DNA from: Verrucomicrobiota bacterium
Lineage (GTDB): Bacteria; Verrucomicrobiota; Verrucomicrobiia; Opitutales; Opitutaceae
Assembly (NCBI GenBank): GCA_025352985.1
Contig: JANXRL010000165.1
Span: 1-33,474, forward strand
Direction: 5' to 3'
DNA: 33,474 bases
Each line of letters starts with the position of its first letter. The first letter of the stretch is position 1. A program made the translations under genes and the position numbers. The notes below the pieces were generated by a model. That model saw nothing but the letters and a program-made list of their open reading frames with translations. It searched no databases and was not told the DNA's origin. Below are positions 1 to 33,474 of this stretch, in pieces.

Positions 1-2
1 GC

Positions 3-422
3 CTCATCGACATCGGCGTGAAGCCGTTCCTCGTCTCGACCTCGCTCCGCGCGGCCGTTGCACAGCGCCTCACCCGCAAGATATGTAAGCAGTGCAAGAA
101 ACCCTACACCCCCGATTCCAAGGAGCTGCGTTCGCTTAACATCAGCGCGCAGCAGGCCGCCTCGGCCACTTTTATGCACGGCGAAGGTTGTCCCAATTGC
201 AACGCGACCGGCTTCCGCGGCCGCATCGGTATCTTTGAAATGTTCGTCGTTAACGAGGAAATCCAGCGTATGATCTACGACAACGCAGGCACCTCAAAGC
301 TGCGCGACAAGGCCCGGGCTCTGGGCATGCGCACCATGCGCGAGGACGGCATTCGCAAGGTGACTTCCGGGCAGACCACCATCGAGGAAGTCGTTTCGAT
401 TACCGTGGGCGACGCCAACTAA
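3..422 (+). CDS. PilB/GspE-family ATPase, C-terminal part (5' end outside window)
   Basis: This is the last 139 residues of a secretion or pilus assembly ATPase whose frame is already open at the window edge. The visible part holds the stretch that follows the ATPase core in this family ([20 protein letters not shown]), then the zinc-binding tetracysteine pair CKQC and CPNC, and the closing GMRTMREDG segment. The same segments occur in the complete PilB homologue at 1569-3269, so the two are paralogues lying on either side of pilT. In this family the enzyme is a cytoplasmic hexamer that powers pilin polymerisation or type II secretion. The Walker motifs are outside the window. The next gene starts 23 bases downstream, so it is probably co-transcribed. 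Confidence 0.9.
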
Positions 423-445
423 GTCCGCCCGAACATTCCAAAATC

Positions 446-1528: not shown

Positions 1529-1568
1529 TTTTTATCTTTTTCAGCCCACCGGCCAAAGCACTATCCCT

Positions 1569-3269
1569 ATGTTCGAGAGCCACAGCCAAGCTATTCTGGA
1601 ACTTTGTCGCGACCATCATCTCGTCGCACCCTCAACCCTCAACGACCTCAACGAAGAGCACAAGGCCACCGGAAAGTCGCTTGCCGATCTGCTCGTCGAG
1701 ATGGGCATAGTCGAGAAATCTGTTTTGCTCCAAAAAGTAGCCGGTCAGTTGGGCTACGAATACCTTGACGGTTCGCCGGGCGAGATTCCCGGTGAGGTAA
1801 TCGGCGCCCTTCAGGGAAATCTGGCCCGCATGTATGGCGTGGTTCCTATCCGCATGGATGCGCAAAGCATCGATTTGCTAGCCAGTGATCCTTTCAATAA
1901 TCAGGTCATCGACGACCTCACCTTCGCGTTGGGTAAAGACATCCGCCTGGTGGTCGGCGACCCCGTGCGTATCGAGGGCATGTTAAAACTCCACTACGGC
2001 GATGATGAAACCACCGTGGATGATCTCCTCAAGGAGTTATCCAGCGACGACCACGACGGCGCAGGCGGAGGCAACAAGGAGTTGTCGGAGCACGACCTGG
2101 AGTCCATGGCCGGGCAGACCCCGATCATCCGATTCGTCAACCTCGTGATCGGCCAGGCCATCCGTGACAAGGCCTCCGACATCCACTTCGAGCCGTTCGA
2201 ACATGAATTCAAGATCCGCTACCGCATCGACGGTTCGCTTTACGAAATGGCGCCGCCGCCCAAGCACCTCGCCCTGCCCATCACCTCTCGCGTCAAGGTT
2301 CTCGCCAATCTCAACATCGCCGAACGCCGCATCCCGCAGGACGGACGCATCAAGTTGACGCTTGGCGGCCGGTCGGTCGATCTGCGCGTGTCCACGCTGC
2401 CGACTCAGTTTGGTGAGTCCGTGGTGCTCCGTGTGCTCGACCAGTCGGCCGTGCAACTCGACATCACGTCTCTCGGCATGCCCAAGGATGTATTCGAGGG
2501 CATCAACGACATCATCCATCGTCCGAACGGCATTTTTATCGTCACGGGCCCAACCGGCTCCGGTAAGACGACGACTCTCTACAGCGCCCTTCGCGTCATA
2601 AACACCACCGACCTCAAACTGCTTACGGCGGAAGACCCTGTGGAGTATGAGATTGAGGGCATCATGCAGGTGCCGGTTAACCACGCCGTCGGCCTCACGT
2701 TCGCCGCCGCGCTTCGCTCCTTCCTCCGTCAAGACCCCGACGTGATCATGGTGGGTGAGATTCGAGATTTGGAAACCGCGCAGATCGCCATCCAAGCCTC
2801 GCTTACCGGTCACTTGGTATTGTCCACTCTGCACACCAACGACGCGCCCGGCGCGGTCACCCGCCTGGTGGACATGGGCGTGGAGCCCTTCCTCATCGCT
2901 TCCTCACTGGAGGCCGTGCTCGCGCAGCGACTCGTGCGACGCATCTGCAAGAATTGCCGCACGCCCTACGAGCCGCCGGCTGCGCTTCTCCAGCAGTTGG
3001 GCATCGATCCCGTGGACATTGGCAATCGCGAATTTTTCTACGGTCGCGGCTGCGAACATTGCAGCGACAGCGGTTATCGGGGCCGCATGGGCGTTTACGA
3101 ATGGCTCCGCCTGAGCGAGTCGATCCGCGATCTCGTGGTCGAGCGCGCCTCCACTATGGTCATCAAGCAAAAGGCTTTGGAACAGGGCATGCGAACCCTC
3201 CGCGATGACGGTCTGAGGTCCATTTTTGACGGTGCCACCTCCATCGAGGAAGTTATCAAGTATACCTGA
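1569..3269 (+). CDS. pilB: Type IV pilus assembly / type II secretion ATPase PilB (GspE family)
   Basis: This is a 566-residue extension ATPase. Residues 1-145 form an MshEN/T2SSE N-terminal region. The ATPase core follows, with Walker A GPTGSGKT (327-334), acidic TAEDPVEY (353-360), Walker B MVGEIRD (394-400) and His box [10 protein letters not shown] (414-423). A zinc tetracysteine is formed by Cys460/463 and Cys495/498. The start is placed at the ATG beginning MFESHSQ. An upstream in-frame start at 1476 would overlap the end of pilT and add 31 residues with no family resemblance. It is the second PilB-type gene in the cluster, so one may serve pili and the other secretion. That split is a guess. 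Confidence 0.93.
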
Positions 3270-3340
3270 TGCGGGCGTGCTTCCGCTATGGACTCCCGGG
3301 TTAAAGCCCGCACTTTCAAACTTAGTCACCCCTTAATCCT

Positions 3341-4633
3341 ATGCCCAAATTTAGCTATACCGCCATCGAGTCGACATCCGGAAAAGAAAAGAAAGGCACC
3401 GTCGAAAGCGCCACGCCTGAGCAAGCGTCCATCGAATTGAAGGCCATGGGACTGCTGCCCACCTCGCTCGCACCCGATGGTGCAGGTAAGTCCCCCCCCA
3501 AGGACCCCCGCAAAGTCGGTGGCCCCACCATGGCGGCTGCTTCCGGCCCCGGCCCCGTCAAAAAGAAAAAGGGCGGCATGACATTCGGCCGTGTCATCAG
3601 CACTTCGGGCCTCACGATTTTTACCCGCCAGCTCTCGACGCTCGTAAATGCCGGCATGCCCATCATGCGCAGTCTGGAGACCTTGGGGCGCCAGGAGAAA
3701 AACCCAGCGTTCAAGGAAATCATCGACACCTTGGTGGAAAGTATTCGTTCGGGTGGTAATTTTTCGGACGGGCTCCTTCAGCACCCTAAGGTATTTGACC
3801 GCCTTTACGTCAACATGGTGAAGGCGGGCGAGGCGGGCGGCGTGCTTGGCACGGTGCTTGATCGTCTGGCCAAATTCATGGAGAAGGCCGAGAAGATCAA
3901 GGGTAAGGTCAAGGCCGCCATGACCTATCCCGTTATCATCGTCTTTGTCGCGGTAGCGATTGTTTCCGCGCTGATGGTTTTCGTGGTGCCGCAATTCGAG
4001 AAAATCTTCCAGGGTCTGCTCAAGGGCCAAGCGATGCCCGGTCTGACCCTTATGGTCATCGGCTTTAGCAATTTCATTAAGCACAACATCCTTGTGACCA
4101 TCGGCATCATCGTGGCCGGTTGGTTCTCCTTCAAGGCTTGGCATCGCACGGCCAAGGGCACGTTTGTGGTCGATTGGCTGCTCATCAAGTCGCCAGCCAT
4201 CGGGCCACTTTTCCTCAAGGCGTCTATTGGCCGCTTCACGCGCACGCTGGGGACGCTCCTCGCTTCGGGCGTGCCTATCCTGCAGGCCCTCATCATCACC
4301 CGTGACACTTCGGGCAACGTTCATGTCGCCAATGCCCTCAGCCTTGTCCATGATCGCGTGAAGGAGGGCGACAACGTCGCCAAGCCTCTCGAATCCACCA
4401 AGGTTTTCCCCAACATGGTCACCTCCATGATCGAGGTCGGCGAGGAAACTGGCGCGCTGCCCGAGATGCTCAACCGCGTCGCCGACACCTACGACGAAGA
4501 AGTGGACAACGCTGTTGCCGGCCTCACCTCGATCATCGAACCGATCATGATCGTGTTCATGGCCGTGGTGGTAGGAACCATCGTCATCGCGCTGTTCCTG
4601 CCCATCATCGGCATCATCAAGGGCATGACCTGA
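3341..4633 (+). CDS. pilC: Type IV pilus inner-membrane platform protein PilC (GspF family)
   Basis: The 430-residue product is a polytopic platform protein with two T2SSF domains, about residues 90-215 and 290-420. It has three hydrophobic spans, near 197-220, 245-263 and 400-425. The first domain carries the typical text TRQLSTLVNAGMPIMRSLE and the second repeats it as TRTLGTLLASGVPILQAL, which is the duplicated architecture of PilC/GspF. The N-terminal segment FSYTAIESTSGKEKKGTVES is also typical. The protein anchors the ATPases encoded just upstream and couples them to pilin assembly. A 71-base spacer separates it from pilB, and the gene is followed at once by a strong terminator, so it closes this pilus operon. 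Confidence 0.94.
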   Translation: MPKFSYTAIESTSGKEKKGTVESATPEQASIELKAMGLLPTSLAPDGAGKSPPKDPRKVGGPTMAAASGPGPVKKKKGGMTFGRVISTSGLTIFTRQLSTLVNAGMPIMRSLETLGRQEKNPAFKEIIDTLVESIRSGGNFSDGLLQHPKVFDRLYVNMVKAGEAGGVLGTVLDRLAKFMEKAEKIKGKVKAAMTYPVIIVFVAVAIVSALMVFVVPQFEKIFQGLLKGQAMPGLTLMVIGFSNFIKHNILVTIGIIVAGWFSFKAWHRTAKGTFVVDWLLIKSPAIGPLFLKASIGRFTRTLGTLLASGVPILQALIITRDTSGNVHVANALSLVHDRVKEGDNVAKPLESTKVFPNMVTSMIEVGEETGALPEMLNRVADTYDEEVDNAVAGLTSIIEPIMIVFMAVVVGTIVIALFLPIIGIIKGMT

Positions 4634-4654
4634 GCGTCTTACGATTCATCACTC

Positions 4655-4689
4655 AAAAGGCGGAGGCTGCAAATGCCTCCGCCTTTTTT
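4655..4689. terminator. Bidirectional rho-independent terminator between pilC and yhaM-like gene
   Basis: A stem of 13 bases per arm (4655-4667 and 4675-4687) encloses a 7-base loop. The core is GGCGGAGGC pairing with GCCTCCGCC. A run of T follows on the plus strand, and the A run on the left gives a T tract on the minus strand. It lies between two convergent genes, 22 bases after pilC and 24 bases after the leftward gene, so it can stop both transcripts. Confidence 0.9.
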
Positions 4690-4712
4690 GCGCCTCCGGC
4701 CAGCGGGTTCGG

Positions 4713-5699
4713 TCACGCGATCGGCTTCGTTAGCAGAGCCGTGTTCAGCCCTGGCAGGCGCTCGGAGAATTCGTCCTGTTCGTTGGCCTGGCGGAGCGTT
4801 CGCTGGACCATGCCCATCTTGGCGTCGAGATTGTCGATCATTGAAACGAAGACGGCTTCGGGCGTCGCCGCATAAACCGCCGCACCCCACTCGGGTTCGC
4901 CTTGGTGGCTTAGGATGATGTGCTCCAGGCGTTCCAAGCGGTCATGATCAAGGCGGGCCTTGATGCCGGCCTTGCGGGCGAGTTGGTAGCCGAGCACGAC
5001 GTGCCCTTGGAGGATGCCCTTGCGGCTGCGCTTGGTCGCGAGGGTGCCTTGGTATTCCACGGTTTTGCCGGTGTCGTGAAGGAGGATGCCCGCCATCGCG
5101 AGGTCGGCGTCCACTTCTTGGTAGAGCGGCAGCAGCGCCTTGCAGACGCGGGCCATGTGGATGGTGTGCTCAAGCAGGCCGTGACGGTAGGCGTGGTGCA
5201 TCGAAACCGCCGCCGGACTCCAGCGGAAGGTTTCGCCCACGTCCTCGAAGACGCTGCGCACGGTCATCCGCAGTTCGTCGTGACCGATGCCTTCGATGAA
5301 GGCCTGAAGCTCCGCCCACAAGACCTCCGCCGACTCGGGCGCGACTTCGACGAGGTTGTCAATGAGTCCTGGGGCGGCCAGTTCCTCTTCGCTCAGGGCG
5401 ACCACTTTAAGAAGTTTGGGGGAGAAGCGTCCTTGGTAGTAGTCCACTCGGCCTTCGATGCGGAGCACGCCGCCTTCGCCGGCGGACTTGATGGCATCGA
5501 AAACCGCGCCGTCACTGAACACCGTGCAACCGAACGAGCCGGTGCGGTCGCCTAGCTCGACCACGAGGAAGGGGTTGCCGTTGGAGGCGGTCTTGCCCGC
5601 GAGCTTTTTGACGACCAGCACGCTGGCGAAAGCTTTGCCCGCGTCTTCGGCGAGGGCCTTGAGTTCGCGGACGGAAAGCAGGGAGGCGGCGTCGGACAT
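4713..5699 (-). CDS. yhaM: YhaM-like OB-fold / HD-domain 3'-5' exoribonuclease
   Basis: The 328-residue protein has an N-terminal OB-fold nucleic-acid-binding domain (about 20-105) and a C-terminal HD domain (about 160-300). The HD domain shows HGLLEHT at 173-179, the metal-binding doublet His208-Asp209 in LLHDTGK, and a further His265. This arrangement and length match the YhaM/CBF1 family, which degrades RNA and single-stranded DNA from the 3' end using divalent metal. It is the last gene of a three-gene leftward operon and starts only 3 bases after the stop of the hydrolase gene. The symbol is by family resemblance, and substrate preference cannot be read from the sequence. Confidence 0.85.
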   Translation of the reverse strand: MSDAASLLSVRELKALAEDAGKAFASVLVVKKLAGKTASNGNPFLVVELGDRTGSFGCTVFSDGAVFDAIKSAGEGGVLRIEGRVDYYQGRFSPKLLKVVALSEEELAAPGLIDNLVEVAPESAEVLWAELQAFIEGIGHDELRMTVRSVFEDVGETFRWSPAAVSMHHAYRHGLLEHTIHMARVCKALLPLYQEVDADLAMAGILLHDTGKTVEYQGTLATKRSRKGILQGHVVLGYQLARKAGIKARLDHDRLERLEHIILSHQGEPEWGAAVYAATPEAVFVSMIDNLDAKMGMVQRTLRQANEQDEFSERLPGLNTALLTKPIA

Positions 5700-20543: not shown

Positions 20544-23411
20544 ATGCAGGCCGCGACCCACATCCACGTCAAAGGTGCCCGTGAGCACAACTTGAAGAAC
20601 CTCGAGTTGCGCATCCCGCGCGGCAAGCTCGTGGTCATCACCGGCCCGTCCGGTTCCGGCAAGTCGTCGCTCGCCTTCGACACCATCTACGCCGAGGGCT
20701 ACCGGAAATACATGGAGTCGCTTTCCACGCAGGCGCGCCAAGTCTTGGAGCAACTCAAGCGGCCCGACGTCGATTTCATTCATGGCCTTTCCCCCGTCCT
20801 CGCCATCGAGCAGCGCACCGGCGGTGGCTCGCCCCGCAGCACCATCGCCACCGTCACCGAGATCGCCGATTACGCCCGCCTCCTCTGGGCACTTCACGGT
20901 GAGCAACGCTGTCCCAAAGACGGCGGCCGCGTCATCCTCCGCTCCCTTGACGACAACGTCGCCCGCGTCCTCCGCGAAGTCCCCGGCGAACGCATCATAT
21001 TGCTCGCCCCCGCCCTGAGCGCGAAGCCCTCCGTCCTCCGCGACGAACTCCCGCGCCTCCGTCAACGCGGCTTTCAACGCGTCCGTCTCGACGGCGAGAT
21101 CAAAAATCTCGACGACCCCAAGCTTCTCCCTACCGGTGCCGGCTCGAAGGAAATCCGCGTCGATCTCGTCATCGACCGCCTCGTCGCCAGCGCCGACCAG
21201 CGCAGCCGTCTCGCCGACTCCCTCGAACTCGCCTTCTGCGAGGGTAAGGACCGCGCCATTGTTCTCGCGCAGAAATCCGCCGACGCCCCGTTGCGCGAGC
21301 TCACCCTCAGCCAGTCGCTCGCCTGCGAGATCTGCGGCGACACCTTCGATAAACTCACTCCGCGTCACTTCTCCTTCAACCACACCGAGGGCGCGTGCGG
21401 CACCTGCGGCGGTCTTGGTCGCAAGCTCCGCTTCGTCCCCGAGCTCGTCATTGCCGACCCCGAAAAATCCGTGCGCGGCGGCGCCATCAAACCGTGGCGC
21501 ATCGGCGGAAAAAATCTCATCATCAAGCACAACGCCCAGCTCAAGCAGCTGGCCGAGCAGCTCCCCTTCGATGCCGACACCCCGTGGAAAGACCTGCCCT
21601 CCGCGGTGCGCGACACGTTGCTCAATGGGGCGGGGGAGCGGTTGTTCGCCTTCAAACTGAAACGCATGCGCGAGCCCAAGGCCATGCCGTTTCCCGGTAT
21701 CCTCGCCGACCTAGAGACGAGCTGGCGCGAGACCGAAAGCGACGGCTTCCGCGCCCGCCTCACCACGTTCATGGTGAGCGGCGAATGCCCCGAGTGCCAC
21801 GGCACGCGCCTCAACGCCCGCAGCGGCGGCGTGCGCGTCGCCGGGAAAACCATCCCCGAGTTCTTCGCTCTCGACGTCGGCACCGCCCATGCCTTCGCCA
21901 ATTCCCTCGTCACCACCCTCGGCGCCAGCGACGCCCTCCGCGAGATCGTCACTGGAGTCGAGCAACGCCTCCGCTTCCTCCTCGAAACCGGCCTCGGCTA
22001 CCTCACACTCGAGCGCGACTACGACACGCTCTCCGGCGGCGAGGCCCAGCGCGTGCGCCTCGCCACGCAGCTCGGCATGGGACTCATGGGCGTGATCTAC
22101 GTCCTCGACGAACCCAGCATCGGCCTGCATCCGCACGACAACCAAAAGTTCCTCGATACGCTCCGCGAGCTGCGTGATCGCGGCAACACCGTCCTCGTGG
22201 TCGAGCACGACGAGGACACCATGCGCATCGCCGACGAGATCATCGAACTCGGCCCCGAGGCCGGCACCGAGGGCGGACAACTCCTCTTTCAGGGAACGCC
22301 CGCCGCCCTCATCGCCGCGCCGCCCTCTGTCTCGCGCACCGGCCCTTATCTTGCCCGAAAAATCCGCGTCACCAAGGACGCCAAAACCAAGAAGAGCGAC
22401 GGCACCTTCCTCACCGTGCGCGAGGCCCGTGCCAACAACCTACGCGACGTGGACGCCCGTTTCCCCGTGGGCCTGCTCACCGTCGTCACCGGCGTGTCCG
22501 GCTCCGGGAAAAGCACGCTCGTGAACGACGTCCTCGCCGCCGCCGCCGCGCGAAAGCTCAACGGCGCTAAGTCCATCCCCGGCAAGCACCGCCACATCGA
22601 GAACCTCGATCTCTTCGAGAAGCTCGTGCAAGTGGACCAGTCACCCATCGGCCGCAGCCCGCGCTCGAATCCCGCCACCTATACCAAGCTCCTCGACCTC
22701 CTGCGCGATCTCTTCGCCACCGTCCCGCTCGCCAAGGTTCGCGGCTACAAGGCCAGCCGCTTCTCCTTCAACGTGCGGGGCGGACGCTGCGAACGCTGCC
22801 AGGGCGACGGTGTCATCAAGCTCGACATGCAGTTCATGGCCGACGCCTACGCCCCGTGCCCCAGCTGCGATGGGCGCCGCTTCAACCGCGAGACGCTGGA
22901 AATCCTCTTCCACGGCAAGTCCATCGCCGACGTCCTCGACATGACCGTGCGCGACGCCATGCAGCTCTTCCGCAACATCCCCCGCGTGATGGACAAGCTG
23001 GAGACGCTCAACGCCGTGGGCCTCGGCTACCTCACGCTCGGCCAGTCCGCCACCACGCTCTCCGGCGGCGAAGCCCAGCGGTTAAAACTCTCGCTGGAGC
23101 TGAGCAAGCGTCAGCAAGGAAACGTGCTCTACATCCTCGACGAGCCGACGACCGGACTGTACTGGGTGGACATCCAGCACCTGATGGACCTGCTCTTCAA
23201 ATTGCGCGACGCGGGCAACACCCTCATCGTGATCGAGCACAACCTCGACGTGATCCACCTGGCCGACTGGCTGATCGACCTCGGCCCCGGCGGAGGCACC
23301 GCCGGCGGCGAGATCGTTTACGCCGGCGACCGTCCCGGCATCGAGAAAGAGCCGCGCAGCCTCACGGGACAGGCGTTGGTGAAGTGGGGCGCGGCAGGAA
23401 CTAAGAGCTGA
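20544..23411 (+). CDS. uvrA: Excinuclease ABC subunit A (UvrA)
   Basis: The 955-residue protein is a full-length UvrA, the damage-recognition ATPase of nucleotide excision repair. It has two ABC modules. The first Walker A is GPSGSGKS (34-41), with signature [13 protein letters not shown] and [11 protein letters not shown]. The second Walker A is GVSGSGKST, with signature [16 protein letters not shown] and [12 protein letters not shown]. Zinc sites appear as CEICG...[14 protein letters not shown] and CERCQG...CPSCDG. The usual TTGLHF of the second module reads TTGLYW here, and the first region RCPKDGG lacks the common CxxC. The start is the ATG at [17 protein letters not shown]. The final 150 bases are partly duplicated at 24503-24597. 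Confidence 0.96.
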
Positions 23412-23452
23412 TAGGTTAAGAGCTGAGAGCCAGAGGATCGGAGTTGTAACCA

Positions 23453-23773
23453 CTAAATGGAATCGCCCAATGCGGGCGATTCTCTGGGGGTGGCTTCTCG
23501 CCAATGGCTCCAGCGATTAAGCGCAGGGGCGGCTGATGCCGCCGGGATTAGAGCTTCGAAGTCGGGGTTTTCTGGCTCTAGACTCTCCACGAAGCGCATG
23601 CAGCGGTAGAGCACGGAGTCGCTCACCTTGAGGTCATGGGAGAGCTTGGACATGGTTGCGGTGCCGTAGCCGGGCTTGGCCTCGTTGAGCCGCAGGTGCT
23701 CGCCGATGAGCCGGCCCGTCTCCCGGTAGGTGCGGACCTTGGCCTGCTCGATCTCGCGCTGACCGGTGAGCAA
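23453..23773 (-). pseudogene. DUF1016-like N-terminal domain fragment without a normal start
   Basis: The frame encodes a helical segment of the DUF1016_N/YhcG-like type: GQREIEQAKVRTYRETGRLIGEHL, then YGTATMSKLSHDLKVSDSVLYRCMRFVESLEP. The matching region seems to begin earlier, around LTPIPQTYAALRRKVETALL up to about 23850, but no ATG or GTG lies in that stretch. The first possible start is the TTG at 23773. The C-terminal nuclease-like domain usually seen in full-length DUF1016 proteins is absent, and the last 35 residues are low in family resemblance. I read it as a remnant lying between uvrA and hicB. The family call is by recollection of pattern, so moderate. Confidence 0.5.
23460..23482. 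repeat. Perfect 9-base inverted repeat after uvrA
   Basis: GAATCGCCC (23460-23468) and GGGCGATTC (23474-23482) form a hairpin with a 5-base loop, 49 bases after the uvrA stop. There is no T run on either side, so it is not a standard rho-independent terminator. It lies inside the 3' end of the DUF1016-like fragment. It could be a junction or regulatory element. Confidence 0.55.
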
Positions 23774-23880
23774 CGCCGTCTCAACCTTCCGGCGCAGGGC
23801 CGCGTAGGTTTGCGGAATGGGTGTCAGCGCGGCGGAGGGTCTGAGGCGGAGAGGCTCTCGCCCAACTGGGGTCGGGGAAT

Positions 23881-24243
23881 TCAGGTGTCGGCGAGGGCCG
23901 TCGCGACAAACTGGTTGAGGCTTTCGCCGCGTGCGAGCGCCTTGAGAGAGGCTTTTTTATGAAGCTCGGGCGCGATACGGACGACAAACTGGCCGCTGTA
24001 TTTTTTCCCCGCCGTGCCTGCGGGGAGCGGATGGCCGTCGCCGAGCATGATTTCGATCCATTCCTCGACGAGGGTGCTGAGCTGGGCCATGACCTCGGCC
24101 TCCGTGCGACCGTGGCAGCAGGGGCCGATGATGGGTGGCGCGCTGCCGACAAAACAGCCGTCCTCGTCGGACCACTCCACGAGTTTGAGGTAGCGACGGG
24201 CAAGCACGGCCGGGGTTTCGGTTTTTTTTGCGAAGACTTTCAT
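23881..24243 (-). CDS. hicB: HicB family antitoxin
   Basis: The 120-residue protein has the HicB partial RNase-H-like N-terminal region, YLKLVEWSDEDGCFVGSAPPIIG then HGRTEAEVMAQLSTLVEEWIE (18-64). At the C-terminus is a ribbon-helix-helix DNA-binding segment, GQFVVRIAPELHKKASLKALARGESLNQFVATAL (84-117). HicB neutralises HicA by blocking its active site and represses the hicAB promoter. The start ATGA overlaps the hicA stop by 4 bases, so the pair is translationally coupled in the common toxin-first order. An inverted repeat just upstream of hicA is a likely binding site. Confidence 0.9.
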   Translation of the reverse strand: MKVFAKKTETPAVLARRYLKLVEWSDEDGCFVGSAPPIIGPCCHGRTEAEVMAQLSTLVEEWIEIMLGDGHPLPAGTAGKKYSGQFVVRIAPELHKKASLKALARGESLNQFVATALADT

Positions 24244-24434
24244 GGGCGGGAGAGAATTATTTTTTGGCGGACTTCCTTTTCCTGGTAGTGGCGGGCGTCG
24301 GCCCCGGCTTGACCGGAAAGCGTTACGCGGACGCCTTGGGGATGAATGTAATTGCGGTGACTGCCCTTGCCGCCCCGGTTGACGAAGCCGGCCCGTTCGA
24401 GGTCGGTCATCAGTTCTCGGAGCTTTCTGGGCAT
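24240..24434 (-). CDS. hicA: HicA family mRNA interferase toxin
   Basis: The 64-residue protein is a typical HicA with a double-stranded-RNA-binding-like fold: MPRKLRELMTDLERAGF, then the catalytic histidine His26 in GGKGSHRNYIHP, and a short strand VRVTLSGQ. HicA cleaves mRNA when free of HicB. Its C-terminal helix (HYQEKEVRQKIIL) is present, so the toxin looks intact. The start codon lies only 3 bases after an inverted repeat that overlaps a candidate -10 box, which suggests a leaderless transcript. The pair lies between uvrA and a displaced copy of a uvrA 3' segment. Confidence 0.92.
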   Translation of the reverse strand: MPRKLRELMTDLERAGFVNRGGKGSHRNYIHPQGVRVTLSGQAGADARHYQEKEVRQKIILSRP

Positions 24435-24437
24435 GCC

Positions 24438-24475
24438 AGTATCAAAACGATACTAAGATGGGCCTCAAGCGTCAA
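24438..24475 (-). promoter_or_regulatory. hicAB promoter with overlapping operator palindrome
   Basis: Read leftward, TTGACG (24475-24470) and TATCGT (24452-24447) form a -35/-10 pair with an ideal 17-base spacer. The -10 box lies inside an inverted repeat, AGTATC (24438-24443) and GATACT (24449-24454), spaced by 5 bases. This fits autorepression by the HicB ribbon-helix-helix domain. The predicted transcription start falls within a few bases of the hicA ATG, leaving little or no leader. Confidence 0.7.
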
Positions 24476-24502
24476 ATCGAGGGATGTGGCCTTACGCGCC
24501 CG

Positions 24503-24597
24503 TGACCGACTGGCCGATTGATCTGAGCCCCGTCGGAGGCACCGCCGGCGGCGGGATCGTCTGCGCTGGAGACCGCCCCGGCATGGAAAAAGAGCCC
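24503..24597 (+). pseudogene. Displaced copy of a uvrA 3'-end segment
   Basis: These 95 bases align without gaps to uvrA 23260-23354, with 16 mismatches by my count (about 83% identity). The match includes a 20-base identical run (24534-24553 with 23291-23310). It translates as DWPIDLSPVGGTAGGGIVCA, matching [20 protein letters not shown] of UvrA. It has no start and stops matching before the last 57 bases of uvrA. The hicAB block lies between the two copies. It is a remnant left by insertion or duplication, and the frame it keeps open runs on into the TPR gene only by chance. Confidence 0.8.
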
Positions 24598-24669
24598 CCC
24601 AGTAGTTACGATGTGACTAGCAGACTGAGCTTGGAGCCGTTGTCTAAACGCTGTGAGCTAGTCATTCCC

Positions 24670-25149
24670 ATGACTCTTTCCACCCACACGCTGCGGCAGC
24701 TTGGTTATGCCGAGGGGTATCTGGCGCTGGGGATGAAGGCGCAGGCGGCAGAGGCGCTCTCCCAGATCGCCGAGGCGGAGCGGGCGGCGTCTCCGGTGTT
24801 GGTGTTGTCGTTGGCGGTGCACACCGAGCGGGGCGACTGGCCCAATGCGGCGGAGGTCGGTGCGATTCTCTGCGAGCGTGAGCCTGGCGTTCACTGGCAT
24901 TGGATTCAGTGGGCCTATGCGGTGCGGCGGAGCAAGTCGCTGGACGCGGCCAAGGAGATTCTCATGCGCGGGGTGGCGCTGCATCCGCAGGAAGCGATCT
25001 TTCACTTCAACCTCGCATGCTACGAGGCGCAGCTCGGTCGGCTCGACGATGCCCGCGTGTTGCTGGAAACGGCCTGCGCGCTCGACGGGAGCTATGTCGA
25101 TCTGGCGAAGACGGACGCGGATTTGGCGCCTTTGCGCTGCACGAATTAG
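24670..25149 (+). CDS. Small TPR-repeat protein
   Basis: The 159-residue protein is all helical with TPR-like units: LRQLGYAEGYLALGMKAQAAEALSQIAEA (9-37), NAAEVGAILCEREP, WAYAVRRSKSLDAAKEILMRGVALHPQ and FHFNLACYEAQLGRLDDARVLLETACALD. The last two keep the TPR consensus of small residues and a terminal Pro or Asp. Such proteins act as protein-binding adaptors, and no partner can be named. The ATG at 24670 begins MTLSTHTLRQLGY. The open frame upstream belongs to the uvrA remnant. Its TTAG end is shared with the stop of the convergent regulator, and its last 200 bases recur in decayed form at 30231-30430. Confidence 0.8.
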   Translation: MTLSTHTLRQLGYAEGYLALGMKAQAAEALSQIAEAERAASPVLVLSLAVHTERGDWPNAAEVGAILCEREPGVHWHWIQWAYAVRRSKSLDAAKEILMRGVALHPQEAIFHFNLACYEAQLGRLDDARVLLETACALDGSYVDLAKTDADLAPLRCTN

Positions 25150-26347
25150 TGAGCAAGTCGCGGGGGCGCTTTGGGCGCGGGGGCGGGCTTGGTCGCGCGA
25201 TAACCGTTGGGCGAGCAGCCGACGTTTTTTTTGAAAACCTTGCACATGTAGTTTGCGTCGGAAAATCCACTGGCCGTCGCGATCGCATGAATGGGAGCGG
25301 ACGAACTCAGCAGAAGCGTCTTCGCCCGTTCGATGCGAACGCGGACGATTTCCTTGAGCAGGCTGCGTCCCGTGGACTTGACGAAGTGTGTTTCCAGCGA
25401 GCGGCGCGAAATACCCACATGCTCCGCAACTTCGCCCACTTGGATCATCTCGTGGGCTTTTTGGAGAATGAACTGCCGGGCCTTCCGGACGCGCTCGTCA
25501 TGCGCCATGGCTGTCGCGGTCGATTTTCGCGCGACTATCTGGATGGCGGGAATGTGGATTTCTCGGCTTCCAGGTGGTTTCTTTAGGATCATCGCGTGCA
25601 GTGCCTGCATCGTTCGAAAACCGGCGTCCACCGCGTCAAGGGTGATGCTGGTCAGCGGCGGATTGCAGAGGGAGCAGATGAGTTCGTCGTTGTCCGCGCC
25701 CACGACGGCGACTTCATCCGGAACCGCAAGGCCTGCCTGCCGGCAGGCGTCGATCACCTGTAGTCCGCGCGCGTCGTTCGCCGCGAGTATGCCTGCGGGC
25801 TTGGGAAGCTTGGTTAGCCATTTAACCATCCGGCGGCTTTCGGTCGTCCAATCGTCACCATTCTTGGGGTCATTGGGATAGACCAGTCGGAGCCGAGGTT
25901 TTTGGCGAACGCACGTTCGCGCCGTTTTGACCAGTCGGGATCGCGGGTGTGTCCCACAAACCCGAAACAGGTAAGGCCGCGGTCCTTGAGATGATCGGCC
26001 GCCAGCCGACCGATTGTGTCCGCCTCGACAAATACTTCGATAATCTCACGGTCCGCCGCCGCTCGCCGCTGTCTTTCGGACAGGGTAAAAAAAACCGTGG
26101 GCAGCTTTGTCTTTAGAATGGCGGAGAAAAGGGACGGCGAGGCGGCGCGCGCGATGATGCCGGCCCCCTTCCATGTGTCGGCGTGCGGGAGCACCTGGTT
26201 CAGGCCGCCCGGCTGGAGATCCAGGCTCCATGAACCATTCCGGTGGGCGTAATTCTGCACGCCTAGCAGAAAATCGCGCCCAATTTTGGTGGAAGTCTCC
26301 ACCAAGAGGGCGATTCGGAGGGGGCGTGATGGTTTTGGGTGCTTCAC
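25146..26347 (-). CDS. XylR-type regulator, LacI-like sensor plus AraC HTH (frameshifted)
   Basis: After repair this is a 400-residue regulator. Residues 1-270 form a LacI/periplasmic-binding-like sensor (LRIALLVETSTKIGRDFLLGVQNYA, DTIGRLAADHLKDRG, CFGFVGHTRD, then GILAANDARGLQVIDACRQAGLAVPDEVAVVGADND). Residues about 285-385 form an AraC DNA-binding domain with two helix-turn-helices (VAEHVGISRRSLETHF and IHAIATASGFSDANYMCKVFKKNVG). The two halves are in different frames. One extra C between 25891 and 25892 would give KNLGLRLVYPNDPK and join them. The start is a GTG at 26347. It is divergent from the uronate genes and probably controls them in response to a sugar. Its stop overlaps the TPR gene stop. 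Confidence 0.85.
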
Positions 26348-26499
26348 AGTGTGGGGAATTTTTGCGCGTTTTTACCATCATTATGCGTGATCTTGCTATA
26401 GTAAAAATAACCGTCCGGCGTTAGCTTTTATTGCGTCAGGTCACCTGACTCCACGCCTTTAACCCCGGCTGCACCCTTTTTCCCTCTTCATTTGTCCCA
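26348..26499. promoter_or_regulatory. Divergent control region of the uronate cassette
   Basis: The spacer between the regulator and the first catabolic gene is AT-rich near its left half. A possible rightward -10 box TATAGT lies at 26397-26402, without a good -35. TGCG-containing words occur at 26359-26368, 26381-26390 and 26430-26436 and could be direct-repeat sites for the AraC domain. A 15-base palindrome, GTCAGGT-C-ACCTGAC, lies at 26435-26449. Confidence 0.45.
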
Positions 26500-27393
26500 A
26501 TGAAATCCATCACCGCGTTGATCGGCGTGCTGGCGCTTGCCGGATTCCCGGCCGTTTACGCGCAATCTCCGACGCCTGCCGTGCTGCCCTCGACTTTTTG
26601 CCGTTATGTTCCGGAGCGCGCGGATGATTTTGCCTGGGAAAACGACCTGACCGCGTTCCGGACCTATGGGCCCGCGCTACAACATGGCGCGGAAAACAGC
26701 GGTATCGATTGCTGGCCCAAGCGCGTGAACTATCCGATCATCGATAAATGGTATCGGCTCGATCACGACCGGCATATCAGCTACCACAAGGAGCACGGCG
26801 AGGGTTATGACAACTATCACACGGGCAAGTCGCGTGGCTGTGGCGGAACCGCCCTGTGGATCGACGGAAAGATGGTCCTGTCTGGCGTGTATAAGACTTG
26901 GAAAATTCTCCAATGTGAACGGGAGAAGTCCGTTTTTGTCCTGACCTACGATTACGATCTCAAGGGCCGCAGGATTCACGAGGTCAAGACGATCACCATC
27001 GAGTTAGGCAAGCGCCTCTTCAAATCGGAGTCCGTGTTTACGGAGGGGGGCATGCCTGCGGATGTCGATATCGCGGTCGGCGTGACCACGCATGATCAAA
27101 AAGGCGTCTGCACGCTCAATCGGGCCGCAGGGTATGCGGGTGTATGGGAAATCATCGACCAGCAGGGACTGGGCACCGGCGTCGTCATGGATGCCCGTCG
27201 CATCACCGGTATGCAGGAAATCAAATCCGCCGTGCCGGATGAAAGCCATGCGTTGTTCCTCACCCATACGGATGGCGAGGGCAAAGAGGTCCACTACGCC
27301 GGCTACGGCTGGGAAAAGGCCGGCGTCATCACGACGCCGGAAAGATGGAACGATTACTTGGGCCGATTTGCCGCCGACCTTGCGCCGCGATGA
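26500..27393 (+). CDS. DUF4861 family exported protein
   Basis: The 297-residue protein has a signal peptide (MKSITALIGVLALAGFPAVYA). It matches DUF4861, a family common in polysaccharide-utilisation loci: RYVPERADDFAWENDLTAFRTYGPAL (38-63), ENSGIDCWPKRVNYPIIDKWY (66-86), then GCGGTALWIDGK and the late YAGYGWEKAG. The family is secreted and its reaction is not established. Its genes occur beside uronate catabolism genes, as here with kduI, kduD and GH105. The start is the ATG at 26500, with no Shine-Dalgarno sequence visible. It is the first gene of the cassette. Confidence 0.85.
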   Translation: MKSITALIGVLALAGFPAVYAQSPTPAVLPSTFCRYVPERADDFAWENDLTAFRTYGPALQHGAENSGIDCWPKRVNYPIIDKWYRLDHDRHISYHKEHGEGYDNYHTGKSRGCGGTALWIDGKMVLSGVYKTWKILQCEREKSVFVLTYDYDLKGRRIHEVKTITIELGKRLFKSESVFTEGGMPADVDIAVGVTTHDQKGVCTLNRAAGYAGVWEIIDQQGLGTGVVMDARRITGMQEIKSAVPDESHALFLTHTDGEGKEVHYAGYGWEKAGVITTPERWNDYLGRFAADLAPR

Positions 27394-27424
27394 TTCAGGA
27401 ATGGAAACACTCCTCCCGCCACCC

Positions 27425-28255
27425 ATGCAAATCCGCCATAGCATCAGCAAAAACGAATACCAGAGGATGACGACGCGCGAGCTGCGCGACACCTTTCTGG
27501 TTGACGGGCTTTTTGCCCCGGGGGAAATCCGGATGGTTTATTGGGAGACAGACCGCACGGTCATCGGCGCGGCGACGCCCCACGCGCAGCCCCTCAAGCT
27601 CGAAACCGAAAAGGAACTTGCTGCGGAGTTTTTTTGTGAACGCCGCGAACTCGGTGTCATCAACATCGGTGCGGCCGGAAAAGTAAAAGTGGGCGATGCC
27701 ATTTACGACCTGGCGCCGCTGGACGGCCTGTATGTCGGCCGGGGAAACCGCGATGTCACTTTTGTCAGCGACGATCCACGGACCCCCGCCAGGTTTTATC
27801 TGATCAGTTACCCGGCCCATGCCGTTTATCCGGTGGTCTTGGTGAAAAAGGCTGATGCAAAACGCATCGCGCTCGGCAGCCGGGTAACCGCCAACCAGCG
27901 CACCCTTTATCAATACATCCACGAGGACGGCGTGAAGAGTTGCCAACTGGTCATGGGCTTCACGCAAATCGACCCGGGTAGCGTCTGGAACACCATGCCG
28001 CCGCACACGCATCTGCGACGTTCCGAGGTCTATCTTTACTTTGACATTCCGGACGATGCGGTGGTCTTCCATTTTTTGGGCGCGCCCGACGAGACCCGGC
28101 ACCTTGTCGCGCAGTCGGCGGAAGTGGCGCTCTCGCCTGTCTGGTCAATTCACTCGGGGTGCGGCACGCGGGCGTATTCGTTCGTCTGGGCCATGGGAGG
28201 GGAAAACCAGCGTTTTGCCGACATGGACGCCGTCGCCTGTCGCGATCTGCGTTAA
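27425..28255 (+). CDS. kduI: 5-dehydro-4-deoxy-D-glucuronate isomerase KduI
   Basis: The 276-residue protein matches the KduI family in length and sequence. It isomerises 5-keto-4-deoxyuronate, the product of unsaturated uronate hydrolysis, to 3-deoxy-D-glycero-2,5-hexodiulosonate. The metal-binding set is present: His194, His196 and Glu201 in MPPHTHLRRSEVYLYF, and His243 in SIHSGCGT. The N-terminal FCERRELGVINIG segment (70-82) and the closing GENQRFADMDAVACRDLR are characteristic. The ATG at 27425 aligns with the usual KduI start. An ATG at 27401 would add eight residues. It lies 31 bases after the DUF4861 gene and 20 before kduD. Confidence 0.95.
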   Translation: MQIRHSISKNEYQRMTTRELRDTFLVDGLFAPGEIRMVYWETDRTVIGAATPHAQPLKLETEKELAAEFFCERRELGVINIGAAGKVKVGDAIYDLAPLDGLYVGRGNRDVTFVSDDPRTPARFYLISYPAHAVYPVVLVKKADAKRIALGSRVTANQRTLYQYIHEDGVKSCQLVMGFTQIDPGSVWNTMPPHTHLRRSEVYLYFDIPDDAVVFHFLGAPDETRHLVAQSAEVALSPVWSIHSGCGTRAYSFVWAMGGENQRFADMDAVACRDLR

Positions 28256-28275
28256 TCCCGAAATCGAAAATCCCC

Positions 28276-29046
28276 ATGCCTATTCTCGACCAGTTCAAAC
28301 TTGAAGGAAAGGTGGCGCTCGTGACCGGCTGCAAGCGAGGCATCGGCCTAGCGATGGCCGTTGCGCTGGCGGAGGCCGGGGCCGACATCATCGGCGTGAG
28401 CGCCTCGCTGGAATCAACCGGCAGCGATGCGGAGCGGGCCGTCACCGCCACCGGGCGCCGTTTCCGCGCCTACCGGTGTGATTTCTCCAAGCGGGATGCG
28501 CTCTATGACTTTATCCATCGCGTGGCGGCCGAGTGCCCGCCCGTCGATATTCTCGTCAACAACGCCGGCATGATCCTGCGCCGGCCGGCCGCGGAGCATC
28601 CTGATTCATCGTGGGATCAAGTCATGAACGTCAACCTGGACGCCCCGTTCATCCTCGGCCGCGAAATCGGTCGGGGGATGCTGGAGCGCGGCGCGGGTAA
28701 AATCATCTTCACCGCTTCTCTTCTGTCCTTTCAGGGCGGCGTCACCGTGCCGGGCTACGCCGCCAGCAAGGGCGCGATCGCCCAGCTCACGATGGCGCTT
28801 TCCAACGAGTGGGCGGGACGCGGCGTCTGCGTCAACGCCATCGCCCCCGGCTACATCGCGACGGACAATACCGAGGCATTGCGGGCCGACGGCGCCCGTT
28901 CCTCCGCCATTCTTTCGCGCATCCCCGCCGGGCGCTGGGGCGCGACCGCCGACCTGAAAGGCGCGACGGTCTTTCTCGCGTCTCCGGCTTCGGACTACGT
29001 GACCGGAACCATCCTCACCGTCGATGGCGGCTGGATGGGGCGCTAA
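28276..29046 (+). CDS. kduD: 2-dehydro-3-deoxy-D-gluconate 5-dehydrogenase KduD (SDR family)
   Basis: The 256-residue short-chain dehydrogenase reduces the KduI product to 2-keto-3-deoxygluconate using NAD(P)H. It shows the nucleotide motif TGCKRGIG (17-24), NNAG (95-98), catalytic Ser148, and Tyr161 and Lys165 in YAASK. The start MPILDQFKLEGKVALVTG and the ending TVDGGWMGR are typical of KduD rather than of FabG. It follows kduI by 20 bases and forms a direct metabolic pair with it. The enzymes that would take KDG onward (KdgK, KdgA) are not in the window. Confidence 0.92.
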   Translation: MPILDQFKLEGKVALVTGCKRGIGLAMAVALAEAGADIIGVSASLESTGSDAERAVTATGRRFRAYRCDFSKRDALYDFIHRVAAECPPVDILVNNAGMILRRPAAEHPDSSWDQVMNVNLDAPFILGREIGRGMLERGAGKIIFTASLLSFQGGVTVPGYAASKGAIAQLTMALSNEWAGRGVCVNAIAPGYIATDNTEALRADGARSSAILSRIPAGRWGATADLKGATVFLASPASDYVTGTILTVDGGWMGR

Positions 29047-29072
29047 GTTGTCGAACCCCCAATATAACCCCT

Positions 29073-30212
29073 ATGAAAACCATACTCGCGGCGACCTGTC
29101 TTTATTTCGCGACCGGCCCCGGTTTGTTTGCCAGCGGCGAAGCTCCGCCTGTAGTCGTGTCAAAGGAGCAGATCCTCGCTGCCGGCCAGCACATGGCGGA
29201 AGCCCAGATCGCTCTCTTTAAGGGCAATCTGCCCAAGACCGGTTGGGTCGAGGGCGTTATGTGGGCCGGTTTTTCGGCATTCTCCCACGTCGCCTCCGGC
29301 GCTGCCTGCGCCGATGCGGTGAATGCGATGGGCGCCGAGGCGCGGTGGACACCACCCTTGAGGCCGAAGTCGCCGCACAATGCCGACGACTTGGTCATCG
29401 GCCAGACCTTCCTCGACGTTTACGCCGACAAGAAAGACCCGACGATCATTGAGCCGACTCAAAGCCGCCTCGACGCCGCCTCCGCCTTTATCGCGACGCA
29501 GGAGAAACCCGGTGAGTTGACCTGGTGGTGGTGCGACGCCCTCTTCATGGCTCCTGCGGTGCATGCGCGCCTTTCGGTTCTCACCGGAGACGCCAAATAC
29601 CTCGCGGCGATGCACACGGAGTGGTGGCGCACCGCAGGGCTCCTCTATGACAAGGACGAGCATCTCTTTTTTCGCGACAAACGCTTTCTCGGGAAAATCA
29701 CCAAAAGTGGGAAAAAAACCTTTTGGTCCCGCGGCAACGGTTGGGTGTTTGCCGGACTCGCCCGCACGATCCCGTGGATTCCGGCAGACGATCCGCTGCG
29801 TCCGCGTTACGTGAAGATGTTTCAGGAAATGGCCGCCAAGCTCGCCTCGATCCAGCAGGCGGATGGGACGTGGCACCCCAGCCTGCTGGACTCCGCGGAA
29901 TTACCCTTTTCCGAGACCAGCGGCACGGCCTTGAATTGTTTCGCCTTCGCGTGGGGCATCAACAACGGCCTGCTCGACGCCAAAACCTATCGTCCCGTGG
30001 TGGCCGGCGCTTGGGCGGCATTGCTGGCGGCACGTCGTCCGGACGGCGTGCTCGGCCATGTCCAGGACGTGGCCGACCGTCCTGGTGCGGTTAAGGCTGA
30101 TACCACTAAAATTTACGCCACCGGAGCATTTCTCTTGTCCTCGGTCGAGCTCTCGAAACTGGCGCCGCTCACGCTCCCGACCTTGTCGCCATTGACGTCC
30201 GCTTCCCCCTGA
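29073..30212 (+). CDS. GH105 family unsaturated glycuronyl hydrolase
   Basis: The 379-residue protein has a signal peptide (MKTILAATCLYFATGPGLFA) and an (alpha/alpha)6-barrel of the GH88/GH105 type. Likely active-site segments are HNADDLVIGQ (102-111), WWWCDALFMAP (151-161, with Asp155), FWSRGNGWVFAGLAR (218-231) and ETSGTALN (281-288). GH105 enzymes cleave the unsaturated uronic acid left by pectin or rhamnogalacturonan lyases, giving the substrate of KduI. The product is probably periplasmic. It is the last gene of the cassette, and its stop lies 18 bases before the decayed copy of the TPR gene end. Confidence 0.9.
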   Translation: MKTILAATCLYFATGPGLFASGEAPPVVVSKEQILAAGQHMAEAQIALFKGNLPKTGWVEGVMWAGFSAFSHVASGAACADAVNAMGAEARWTPPLRPKSPHNADDLVIGQTFLDVYADKKDPTIIEPTQSRLDAASAFIATQEKPGELTWWWCDALFMAPAVHARLSVLTGDAKYLAAMHTEWWRTAGLLYDKDEHLFFRDKRFLGKITKSGKKTFWSRGNGWVFAGLARTIPWIPADDPLRPRYVKMFQEMAAKLASIQQADGTWHPSLLDSAELPFSETSGTALNCFAFAWGINNGLLDAKTYRPVVAGAWAALLAARRPDGVLGHVQDVADRPGAVKADTTKIYATGAFLLSSVELSKLAPLTLPTLSPLTSASP

Positions 30213-30230
30213 ACGGCGCGAAAACGCCGG

Positions 30231-30430
30231 CCAAGGAGATTTTCATGCGCGGGGTGGGCTCCATCCGCGTGAGGCGATCTTTCCGTGTTAACCTTGCGTG
30301 CTACGAGGCGCAGCTTGGGCGGCTCGATGACGACCGCTTGGTGCTGGAGATGACCTACGCGCTCTTCAGGACATAAGTCTAGCTGGCGAAGTAGGGCGAG
30401 GATCTGGCGCCGTTGCGGACTAATCGTTAG
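30231..30430 (+). pseudogene. Displaced, decayed copy of the TPR gene 3' end
   Basis: These 200 bases correspond to TPR gene positions 24950-25149. The two ends are exactly co-linear and overall identity is about 77% by my count, with one small deletion and one insertion that cancel. Identical runs include TGCTACGAGGCGCAGCT. The copy still translates as LACYEAQLGRLDD but meets a TAA at 30374-30376, and it has no start of the gene. Homology stops at the TAG on the right and about 18 bases after the GH105 stop on the left. The uronate cassette therefore lies between the intact and displaced ends. Confidence 0.82.
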
Positions 30431-31758: not shown

Positions 31759-32541
31759 CTATTTCGCAGGAGCGGAAGGGATGGCGGCGGAAGGGAAATA
31801 CCGGTCGATGACGGGCTGGATGGCGTCGGCCCAGATTTGGTAGCCCTTCGCGGACGGGTGCAGGAAGTCTGGCATGATTTCGGGGCTGAGGGTGCCGTCG
31901 GCGTTCAGGAACTTTTCGCCAAAATCAAGGAAGATGACTTTTTTGCCGTCATGGAGTTTGGCGATGATTTCGTTGATGGCCTTGATGCGGGCGCGCAGGG
32001 GGTCGTCGGCCTTCTGGCCGCGAGGAAAGATGGCTTGCAGCAGCACGACGGCGTCTGGGCAGCGGGTGCGGTAGTCCTGGACGATGGCGGCGACGCCCTC
32101 GGCGATCTGTTCGTTGGTGTTGCCGGCGAGGTTGTTGGTGCCGATCATGAGGGCGATCAGCGTGGGCTTGAGGTTATCGACCTGGCCGTTGGCGAGGCGC
32201 CACAGGACGTGCTGGGTGCGGTCGCCTGCGATGCCGAAATCAAACGCGCCCAACGAGGCGTAATGCTGGGCCCAGACTTCCTTGCCTCTATTCTGCCACC
32301 AGTCGGTGATAGAGTCGCCGTCGAAGACGAGCTTGATGGAAGCGGCGACGGCTTGGGCGCGGTCGTTGGTAGATTGGACGCGCAGGACCCAGTCGAGCTT
32401 CGGGGCGGCGACGGCGGCGGAATTGACTCCGGCGGGCAGAGGCGGAGGGACGAAGCTGGAGAGCGATCCGTCGTAGGGGGCGGCTTGGGCTAGGGACGCG
32501 CCTGTGAGGACCCAGGTGCCGAGTAGAATTTGGAGTTTCAT
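31759..32541 (-). CDS. Exported SGNH/GDSL-family hydrolase
   Basis: The 260-residue protein has a signal peptide (about 1-20, ending AQA) and all four SGNH blocks: Ser77 in FDGDSITDWW, Gly in FGIAGDRT (102-109), Asn137 in GTNNLAG, and Asp225 and His228 in PDFLHPS. The GDSITDWW form and the acidic-His block resemble the PAF-acetylhydrolase and acetylesterase group. It is probably a secreted esterase acting on acetylated sugars or lipids, but no specific substrate can be read. It is divergent from the protease gene on its right across 80 bases, which include a run of seven G. Confidence 0.9.
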   Translation of the reverse strand: MKLQILLGTWVLTGASLAQAAPYDGSLSSFVPPPLPAGVNSAAVAAPKLDWVLRVQSTNDRAQAVAASIKLVFDGDSITDWWQNRGKEVWAQHYASLGAFDFGIAGDRTQHVLWRLANGQVDNLKPTLIALMIGTNNLAGNTNEQIAEGVAAIVQDYRTRCPDAVVLLQAIFPRGQKADDPLRARIKAINEIIAKLHDGKKVIFLDFGEKFLNADGTLSPEIMPDFLHPSAKGYQIWADAIQPVIDRYFPSAAIPSAPAK

Positions 32542-32621
32542 GGGTGGATTTCAACGTCGGAAACCGAACGGAAATTTACAATAGCCTTGTTGCCGTCGAT
32601 GCGGGGGGGTAGCCCTCAACC

Positions 32622-33474
32622 ATGACGCCAACCCGCAAGGGCTCCTTTCATCTTTTCAATTTGGTCGGCATCGATGTGCATCTGCACTGGTCGTGGTTTC
32701 TCGTGGCGTTCTACCAAATCTCCACCCGTCCCAATGCCTATTCCACGCCGGTTTGGAAGGTGGCCGAATACCTGTCGCTCTTCCTGATCGTGCTGATGCA
32801 CGAGTTTGGCCACGCGCTGGCCTGCCGGCAGGTGGGCGGGACCGCCGACCAGATCGTGCTCTGGCCGCTGGGCGGCGTTGCTTATGTGAATTCGCCGCAG
32901 CGTCCCGGAGCGACGCTTTGGAGCATCGCGGCGGGACCGCTCGTCAACGTGGCGCTTGTGCCGGTGTTTCTCGGGCTGGTCTGGCTGGACCGAGCCAACG
33001 ACTGGATCGTGCACCTGCCCGACCTGCACCGCTTCGTGCGGCAACTCGCGTTCATGAACGCGGGACTACTCATTTTTAATCTCCTGCCGGTCTATCCTCT
33101 CGATGGCGGACAAATCCTGCGCTCGCTGCTGTGGTATCCGTTCGGCCGGGCGCGCAGCCTTATGATCGCGACCATCATCGGGTTTACGGGCGGGTTGGCA
33201 TTGCTTGGCTGGCTGGTGTTGAGCCAGGACCCTGACGATACTCTTTCGGACCTGCTCTGGCCGCTGATGTTGATAGGATTCCTTCTGATGAACTGCTGGG
33301 GCGGTTTCAAGCATGCGCGTGAGCTTCAGAAGATCGCCCGGCTGCCGCGCCACGAGGGTTTCAACTGTCCCTCGTGCCATGCCGCGCCTCCCGCCGGCGC
33401 GTATTGGGGCTGCGCGCAGTGCGGGAAGCCGTTTGACATCTTTGCGGGCGGCGGCGCGTGCCCGCACTGCGGCG
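32622..33474 (+). CDS. Site-2 protease (M50 family) with C-terminal zinc ribbon, 3' end outside window
   Basis: The frame is open from the ATG at 32622 to the window edge (284 codons), so the gene is truncated. The zinc protease motif HEFGH lies at about residues 62-66 within a span, and the third-ligand motif NLLPVYPLDGG follows at about 154-164. Several other spans are present. Near the end are cysteine knuckles CPSC, CAQC and CPHC separated by Gly/Ala-rich residues, forming one or two zinc ribbons on the cytosolic side. Members cleave membrane-embedded regulators, releasing sigma factors or anti-sigma domains. The start MTPTRKGSFHLFNLVGIDVHLHWSW is typical for the SpoIVFB-like group. Confidence 0.9.
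   Translation, partial: MTPTRKGSFHLFNLVGIDVHLHWSWFLVAFYQISTRPNAYSTPVWKVAEYLSLFLIVLMHEFGHALACRQVGGTADQIVLWPLGGVAYVNSPQRPGATLWSIAAGPLVNVALVPVFLGLVWLDRANDWIVHLPDLHRFVRQLAFMNAGLLIFNLLPVYPLDGGQILRSLLWYPFGRARSLMIATIIGFTGGLALLGWLVLSQDPDDTLSDLLWPLMLIGFLLMNCWGGFKHARELQKIARLPRHEGFNCPSCHAAPPAGAYWGCAQCGKPFDIFAGGGACPHCG

Follow-up and report, generated by a model that had tools for sequence, protein, structure and literature searches.

The window analysed here, contig C10 (33,474 bases) of the Opitutaceae genome G000 (2.88 Mb, 199 contigs, 92% complete), contained two neighbouring blocks of DNA, one behind uvrA and one behind a gene for a TPR-domain protein (TPR), each followed by a diverged copy of the 3' part of the gene before it. 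Both blocks were flanked by long direct duplications (100 and ~200 nt), with no linked integrase or transposase among the open reading frames (ORFs) scanned. We interpret both as accessory DNA inserted behind a gene with a long duplicate of its 3' part, i.e., as integrase-free insertion with long target duplication, to which we assign a probability of about 0.56. The best reading of the uvrA–TPR stretch is that it records two such insertion events in stacked accessory DNA.

The uvrA repeat comprised 100 nt on the same strand at 83% identity (E 5e-23). In the TPR repeat, positions 24947–25136 and 30228–30417, likewise on the same strand, matched over 191 alignment columns at 81% (E 4e-43), and by eye the similarity continued to the stop codon (Table 1). 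The 3'-end duplications that an earlier sequence-only reading had seen behind the two genes are therefore real. The uvrA copy was open and in frame with TPR within one ORF (24484–25149), and the TPR copy contained two internal TAG codons and one TAA.

Table 1. Features of the uvrA–TPR stretch, in window positions, and the basis of each assignment.
Feature	Position	Strand	Basis
uvrA, intact native gene	20544..23411	+	NCBIfam NF001503 above cut-off; orthologs in 10 same-genus genomes
Duplicated native uvrA stretch, ending 52 nt before the gene end	23260..23359	+	Repeat alignment
Dispersed ~108-bp repeat directly behind uvrA	about 23433..23549	.	Similar copies in G000:C80, G005, G006, G009, G010, G016
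ORF, weak DUF1016_N likeness	23453..23773	-	PF17761 E 9.5e-4, below cut-off; 3' part inside dispersed repeat
hicB antitoxin-like gene	23881..24243	-	PF05534 above cut-off
hicBA cassette as DNA common to other family genomes	23888..24479	-	Best rows 79–87%
hicA toxin-like gene	24240..24434	-	PF07927 above cut-off
Decayed copy of uvrA 3' stretch	24503..24602	+	83% to native stretch
TPR gene	24670..25149	+	TPR_14 above cut-off; start chosen by alignment, relatives align from about the ATG
Duplicated native TPR 3' end	24947..25149	+	Repeat alignment
XylR/LacI-AraC-type regulator, C-terminal half	25146..25829	-	PF13377, PF12833; stop codon overlaps TPR stop
Same regulator, N-terminal half, other frame	25814..26347	-	Weak PF13377 and PF22177
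DUF4861 protein	26500..27393	+	PF16153
KduI, 5-dehydro-4-deoxy-D-glucuronate isomerase	27464..28255	+	NF002091 above cut-off
KduD-like dehydrogenase	28279..29046	+	TIGR01832 best hit, 326.9 bits vs. cut-off 338.85; PF00106
GH88-family hydrolase	29079..30212	+	PF07470 above cut-off
Decayed copy of TPR 3' end, with stops and indels	30228..30430	+	81%

Both window copies decayed close to neutrally, the polarised changes on the copy side falling on first, second and third codon positions as 2/5/7 in uvrA and 9/7/8 in TPR. An origin of both from foreign homologs was rejected, since the third-position excess of the unpolarised comparison vanished on polarising. At the 12 uvrA sites where the gene of G000 differs from that of G003, the copy agreed with its own gene at nine and with G003 at two; for TPR the corresponding numbers were 22 and seven of 38. 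Both copies thus resembled the G000 gene more closely than that of the nearest relative, which places their origin in this lineage or one very near to it. Raw divergence amounted to 17 of 100 sites for uvrA and 43 of ~200 for TPR, and by these counts the two copies look similar in age.

Block 1, behind uvrA, is a mosaic of the dispersed repeat, the DUF1016_N-like ORF, which is probably a fragment, and hicBA. Its adjacent HicA- and HicB-domain genes, both with Pfam models above cut-off, qualify as a hicBA pair; the pair is predicted from these domains to be a toxin–antitoxin pair, and its addictive effect is thus putative. The hicBA DNA had 79–87% matches over 386–600 nt in seven other family genomes, more than immobile genes would be expected to show. 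Of 200 family genomes, 46 matched at least part of block 1. Carriers of the cassette were searched for and rejected: 72,556 plasmid records gave no match at the DNA level, 30 phage records contained only distant HicB relatives (<60% identity), and one viral contig contained a single relative, a weak one (38% over 38 residues). The dispersed repeat is intergenic with hairpin-like parts and, among the matches listed, occurred in at least ~41 rows in G006, at least 14 in G005, three in G009 and none in G003. Integron gene cassettes are small mobile modules, and an array resembling one is present in the same genus (L139, positions 1–5400 of G010:C1), with ~110-bp repeats every few hundred bases and GCCGAAC...GTTCGGC ends. 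Yet the block 1 repeat did not match the attC-like repeats of this array (the comparison being with that array, not with an attC model), and an integron origin of the block was rejected.

The divergent XylR-like regulator of block 2 (25146–26347) was split over two overlapping frames and is either a broken gene or the product of a sequencing error. Within the genus, KduD was found at E ≤ 1e-60 in G007 only, alongside a related gene set. The idea that the sugar block was donated recently was rejected, the best DNA match among 200 family genomes being 75%, in kduD, with no near donor.

A gene-end repeat scan was carried out on 81 stretches of G000 (1,002,933 bp, ~35% of the genome), covering 645 ORFs (minimum length 200 codons, stop to stop) and accepting same-strand downstream matches to the 3' end of an ORF at E ≤ 1e-8. 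Seven ORFs passed: uvrA, TPR, gspF, ppdK and those at L120, L194 and L205. The latter three, together with L126 and L134, were judged from ORF tables and translations to be neighbouring paralogs; other repeat pairs were dropped as repetitive proteins (L249, L243), terminators (L250) or dispersed repeats (L163, L122). At gspF (L119), a 60-nt repeat (97%), which takes in the stop codon, enclosed a vapBC-like block, in which a PIN-domain gene with an in-frame stop was preceded by a short ORF without a Pfam match. Gene, block and copy were collinear in G005 at 93%, and the block was absent in the six relatives examined (G006, G003, G009, G008, G001 and G010). At mutS, found via a separate repeat scan in a stretch (L159) chosen for its dispersed repeat and not for mutS, a 48-nt repeat (92%) spanning the stop and ~30 bases beyond enclosed HEPN-like and nucleotidyltransferase genes (HEPN-MNT). 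Less clean was ppdK (L127), with 114-nt and 41-nt pieces behind SDR and broken LysR genes. The same scan in relatives gave none of 448 genes with a 3'-end repeat, though G005 carries the gspF case.

Beside these cases, the 41-bp piece at ppdK (2949–2989 of G000:C29) was near-identical to ppdK and lay inside the broken LysR gene, the first bases of the piece being common to both, as if joined to that gene at a short identity. Among the dropped loci, L122 (9558–10062 of G000:C24) held a PD-(D/E)XK_3 gene flanked by two 36-bp repeats (89%), and L163 (3282–4025 of G009:C160) held an ORF between two 32-bp palindrome-like repeats; we take the latter ORF to be a REP-associated transposase and the gene before it to be metH.

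An assembly artefact is hardly credible as the source of these structures. The fragmentation into 199 contigs and the ends of G005 and G006 contigs inside uvrA would fit one, but the window copies are diverged and decayed, not identical, and the gspF case is common to the separate genome G005.

The window hicBA and 18 further family loci (19 in total) were compared by aligning 1.5 kb to the left of the cassette with 1.5 kb to its right, with flanks of at least 600 bp required on each side. Sixteen loci had sufficient flanks; L171, L174 and L177 were excluded because theirs were short. The flanks aligned in five of the 16 (window, L167, L168, L169 and L261), with scores of 89–175, compared to a mean of 28 and a 95th percentile of 34 for 240 mismatched left–right pairs, one of which exceeded 89 (at 182). 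The difference gave a Fisher p of 3e-6, or 4e-5 without the window, the pairs not being independent. Homologs of the window hicBA show an excess of imperfect flanking direct repeats, and one repeat copy lay 0–24 bp from the cassette in all five loci. L173, whose repeat (127 nt, 93%, 2.8 kb apart) exceeds the flank length of the test, was scored as a miss, and L175 (219 nt at 68%) was not counted among the repeat loci. At L169, in G124, the repeat was the 3' end of dapL (NCBIfam TIGR03542; 78–84 nt, 86%), and the locus mirrored that of uvrA: the gene, hicBA, then the 3' copy, here ending at the stop. At L168 it was the end of a 153-aa ORF without a Pfam match; the pieces at L173, similar to the L167 repeat, had no Pfam match. 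Relative to the gene, the cassette was found in both orientations. Together with gspF, ppdK and mutS, the hicBA flank repeats in other family genomes make it likely that a mechanism acted repeatedly, as the sequence-only reading had supposed, and the scan of gene 3' ends that it proposed did yield further cases.

That both window copies stem from this lineage's own genes and decayed about neutrally would also follow from tandem duplications that began inside the gene and were succeeded by partial deletion and accessory insertion, the fragments being leftovers apart from the insertion step. The scrambled ppdK pieces and the truncated uvrA copy agree with such a history. It predicts, however, that 5' fragments are as frequent as 3' fragments, and a mirror scan for 5' ends yielded 23 rows (E ≤ 1e-6), one of them the uvrA copy itself, besides which no decayed 5' fragment was recognised, the rows not all having been inspected. 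Moreover, the DNA behind the gspF and TPR copies showed no trace of the blocks, and the link with the hicBA cassette is left unexplained, so that we consider this history improbable.

No tRNA was found in the window, and no recombinase or transposase was detected among the 14 ORFs scanned between 20544 and 33473 (several small ORFs lay outside the scan), in agreement with what the sequence-only reading had seen. In G000, four genes scored above the PF00589 cut-off, on contigs C11, C165, C185 and C166 and not on C10 (one model; serine recombinases were not searched). Across seven gene-end pairs and four junction types, sharing of k-mers (k = 6 to 8) did not go beyond that of random windows; no common junction core was found, and a shared attachment core was rejected. 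The end of the duplicate relative to the gene end varied: −52 for uvrA, 0 for TPR, +2 for gspF, ~+30 for mutS, −197 for ppdK, approximately the stop for dapL and ~+21 for the L168 gene. Since site-specific recombination predicts a common core and a fixed geometry, neither of which was found, insertion with long target duplication is favoured. A trans-acting integrase with a common core, as the sequence-only reading had suggested, was not supported by these comparisons. That reading had also held that a genome scan without further cases, together with junctions lacking a core and differing in age and mechanism, would refute a single mechanism; a core was indeed lacking, but the scan gave further cases and the two copies look similar in age.

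A related account is that the blocks are remains of integrase elements targeting the 3' ends of protein genes, like e14 at icd, that brought a substitute 3' end and displaced the old one, the integrase having since been lost or acting in trans. Other integrases also use protein-gene 3' ends. The outline is the same, the duplicate reached the stop codon in five of the seven pairs (TPR, gspF, mutS, dapL and the L168 gene, but not uvrA), and the copies lie downstream of 3' ends, as the mirror scan agrees within its limits. Against this stand blocks without a detected integrase or common core, the many different target genes with varying stop offsets, the cassette in both orientations, and window copies that decayed neutrally from own-lineage sequence. 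On balance such elements are a possible but unlikely source, and the account is most open for mutS and dapL, whose synonymous pattern resembles that of icdA/icdC.

The genes upstream of uvrA, which we take to encode permease-like, DoxX-like and ligase-like proteins, were conserved in same-genus genomes wherever the contig reached. The contigs G005:C30 and G006:C360 end inside uvrA, at approximately window positions 22666 and 22813. Close TPR orthologs (65–72% amino acid identity) were present in seven same-genus genomes, all away from uvrA, and none of the other window proteins was found near them at these seven loci. TPR is therefore not a conserved neighbour of uvrA, and the description of the two as consecutive chromosomal genes has to be corrected; the nested hotspot proposed with it was not shown. 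The rubrerythrin/VIT gene behind the second copy occurred in one of 13 genus genomes, G000 alone, and the SGNH and M50 genes at 31786–33470 had 85–86% matches on one contig of G005. Because of these differing neighbours in relatives, nearly everything from uvrA to the SGNH gene is accessory, and the uvrA–TPR stretch is, on the gene-order comparison, stacked accessory DNA. The sequence behind TPR, too, was different in every relative, and no clean empty TPR site was found.

This arrangement also bears on a carried-along homologous flank, i.e., a segment behind the copy that came from a donor with the same gene before it, the copy being the donor gene end at the seam. Behind the uvrA copy comes TPR, a gene with a different location in relatives, and behind the gspF copy there is another accessory segment. 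In none of the 10 same-genus genomes with a uvrA locus did TPR lie behind uvrA, though, and both window copies were nearer to their own gene than to G003; we regard a carried flank as very unlikely.

On the favoured reading, insertion would copy the end of the target gene, possibly by fill-in of a staggered break or, alternatively, when a homologous end invades and the other side is joined illegitimately. The target gene would stay whole and the spare copy would be free to decay. Toxin–antitoxin pairs would be frequent as cargo because they are hard to lose, and a recombinase encoded in the block would be unnecessary. There may be more than one process involved. A tentative and rather doubtful extension is that Opitutaceae toxin–antitoxin cassettes of several families are integrase-free mobile modules that create or carry the 3'-end copy: the direct repeats would allow excision as a circle by homologous recombination and re-insertion behind the same gene in another strain, and addiction would retain the cassette.

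Several observations weigh against insertion with long target duplication. The uvrA–TPR case is known from one assembly alone, which resembles a metagenome-assembled genome, and the sequence behind uvrA was different in each of 10 same-genus genomes, with no clean empty site. The final 52 nt of uvrA are missing from its copy, which is thus an incomplete 3' end, and a plain target duplication there needs a later deletion. The cargo of block 2 is metabolic, a sugar operon, and not an addictive module. At gspF, a further ~1 kb lies in G000 between the copy and the conserved neighbour, and the two ppdK pieces have exchanged their order and both stop short of the gene end. The excess of cases in G000 over relatives was not significant (p 0.07 when five of 645 were counted against none of 448), and 47 of 3689 random positions were flanked by repeat pairs of similar size, a control that itself includes the attC-like array, paralogs and the gspF and ppdK cases. 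The remaining 11 of the 16 hicBA loci had flank scores of 23–49 and no flanking repeat; at L261 the repeat was not clearly a gene end, and at L167 it was presumably a piece of hsdS. Finally, all four changed codons in mutS were synonymous, seven of 10 changes in dapL were on third positions, and in six pairs pooled without polarising 46 of 94 changes were at the third position (p 0.001). This pattern hints that some copies may be diverged functional homologs, not decayed duplicates.

Insertion with long target duplication of restriction–modification genes was reportedly described by Nobusato et al. in 2000 and Furuta et al. in 2010. The sequence-only reading knew of no described system with such a pattern; this kind of insertion is, however, in print for restriction–modification genes, its mark being variable long duplications without a linked element (PMC3874152; also PMC1643837, PMC3154945, PMC3031569), and e14 at icd gives the same outline (PMC4759930). 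The likeness to the restriction–modification case lies in a cargo that is a (here putatively) addictive gene pair. The present cases differ from it in their cargo (mostly hicBA, vapBC-like and HEPN-MNT genes, plus one sugar operon), in sitting largely at gene 3' ends, in their host family, Opitutaceae, and in having worn copies. With e14 they share an intact gene, an inserted element and, in the same orientation, a diverged 3' end that was displaced; of 12 differences between icdA and icdC, 10 are synonymous (PMC4759930). Unlike e14, they showed no integrase and no common core, with small inserts at several unrelated targets. The nearest toxin–antitoxin report found is a Microcystis ParE/ParD-like module directly behind MaOC1, between two 152-bp direct repeats (PMC7935541). 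In contrast to those of the window, its repeats are described there as identical, starting 14 bp after the stop codon and containing inverted repeats, and are not gene ends.

The kind of insertion proposed is thus known, and the cases described here are a variant of it by cargo (three toxin–antitoxin families and a sugar operon), gene-3'-end position and host family. Toxin–antitoxin pairs are spread widely, and the entry of solitary ones into chromosomes without a visible mobile element is an open question. If gene-end duplication marks this entry, one could count the scars, estimate their ages from the extent of decay and follow them from genome to genome, and the joining of the ends would become testable. 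If true, the mechanism reported for restriction–modification genes would also apply to addictive modules of other kinds and to one or more metabolic operons.

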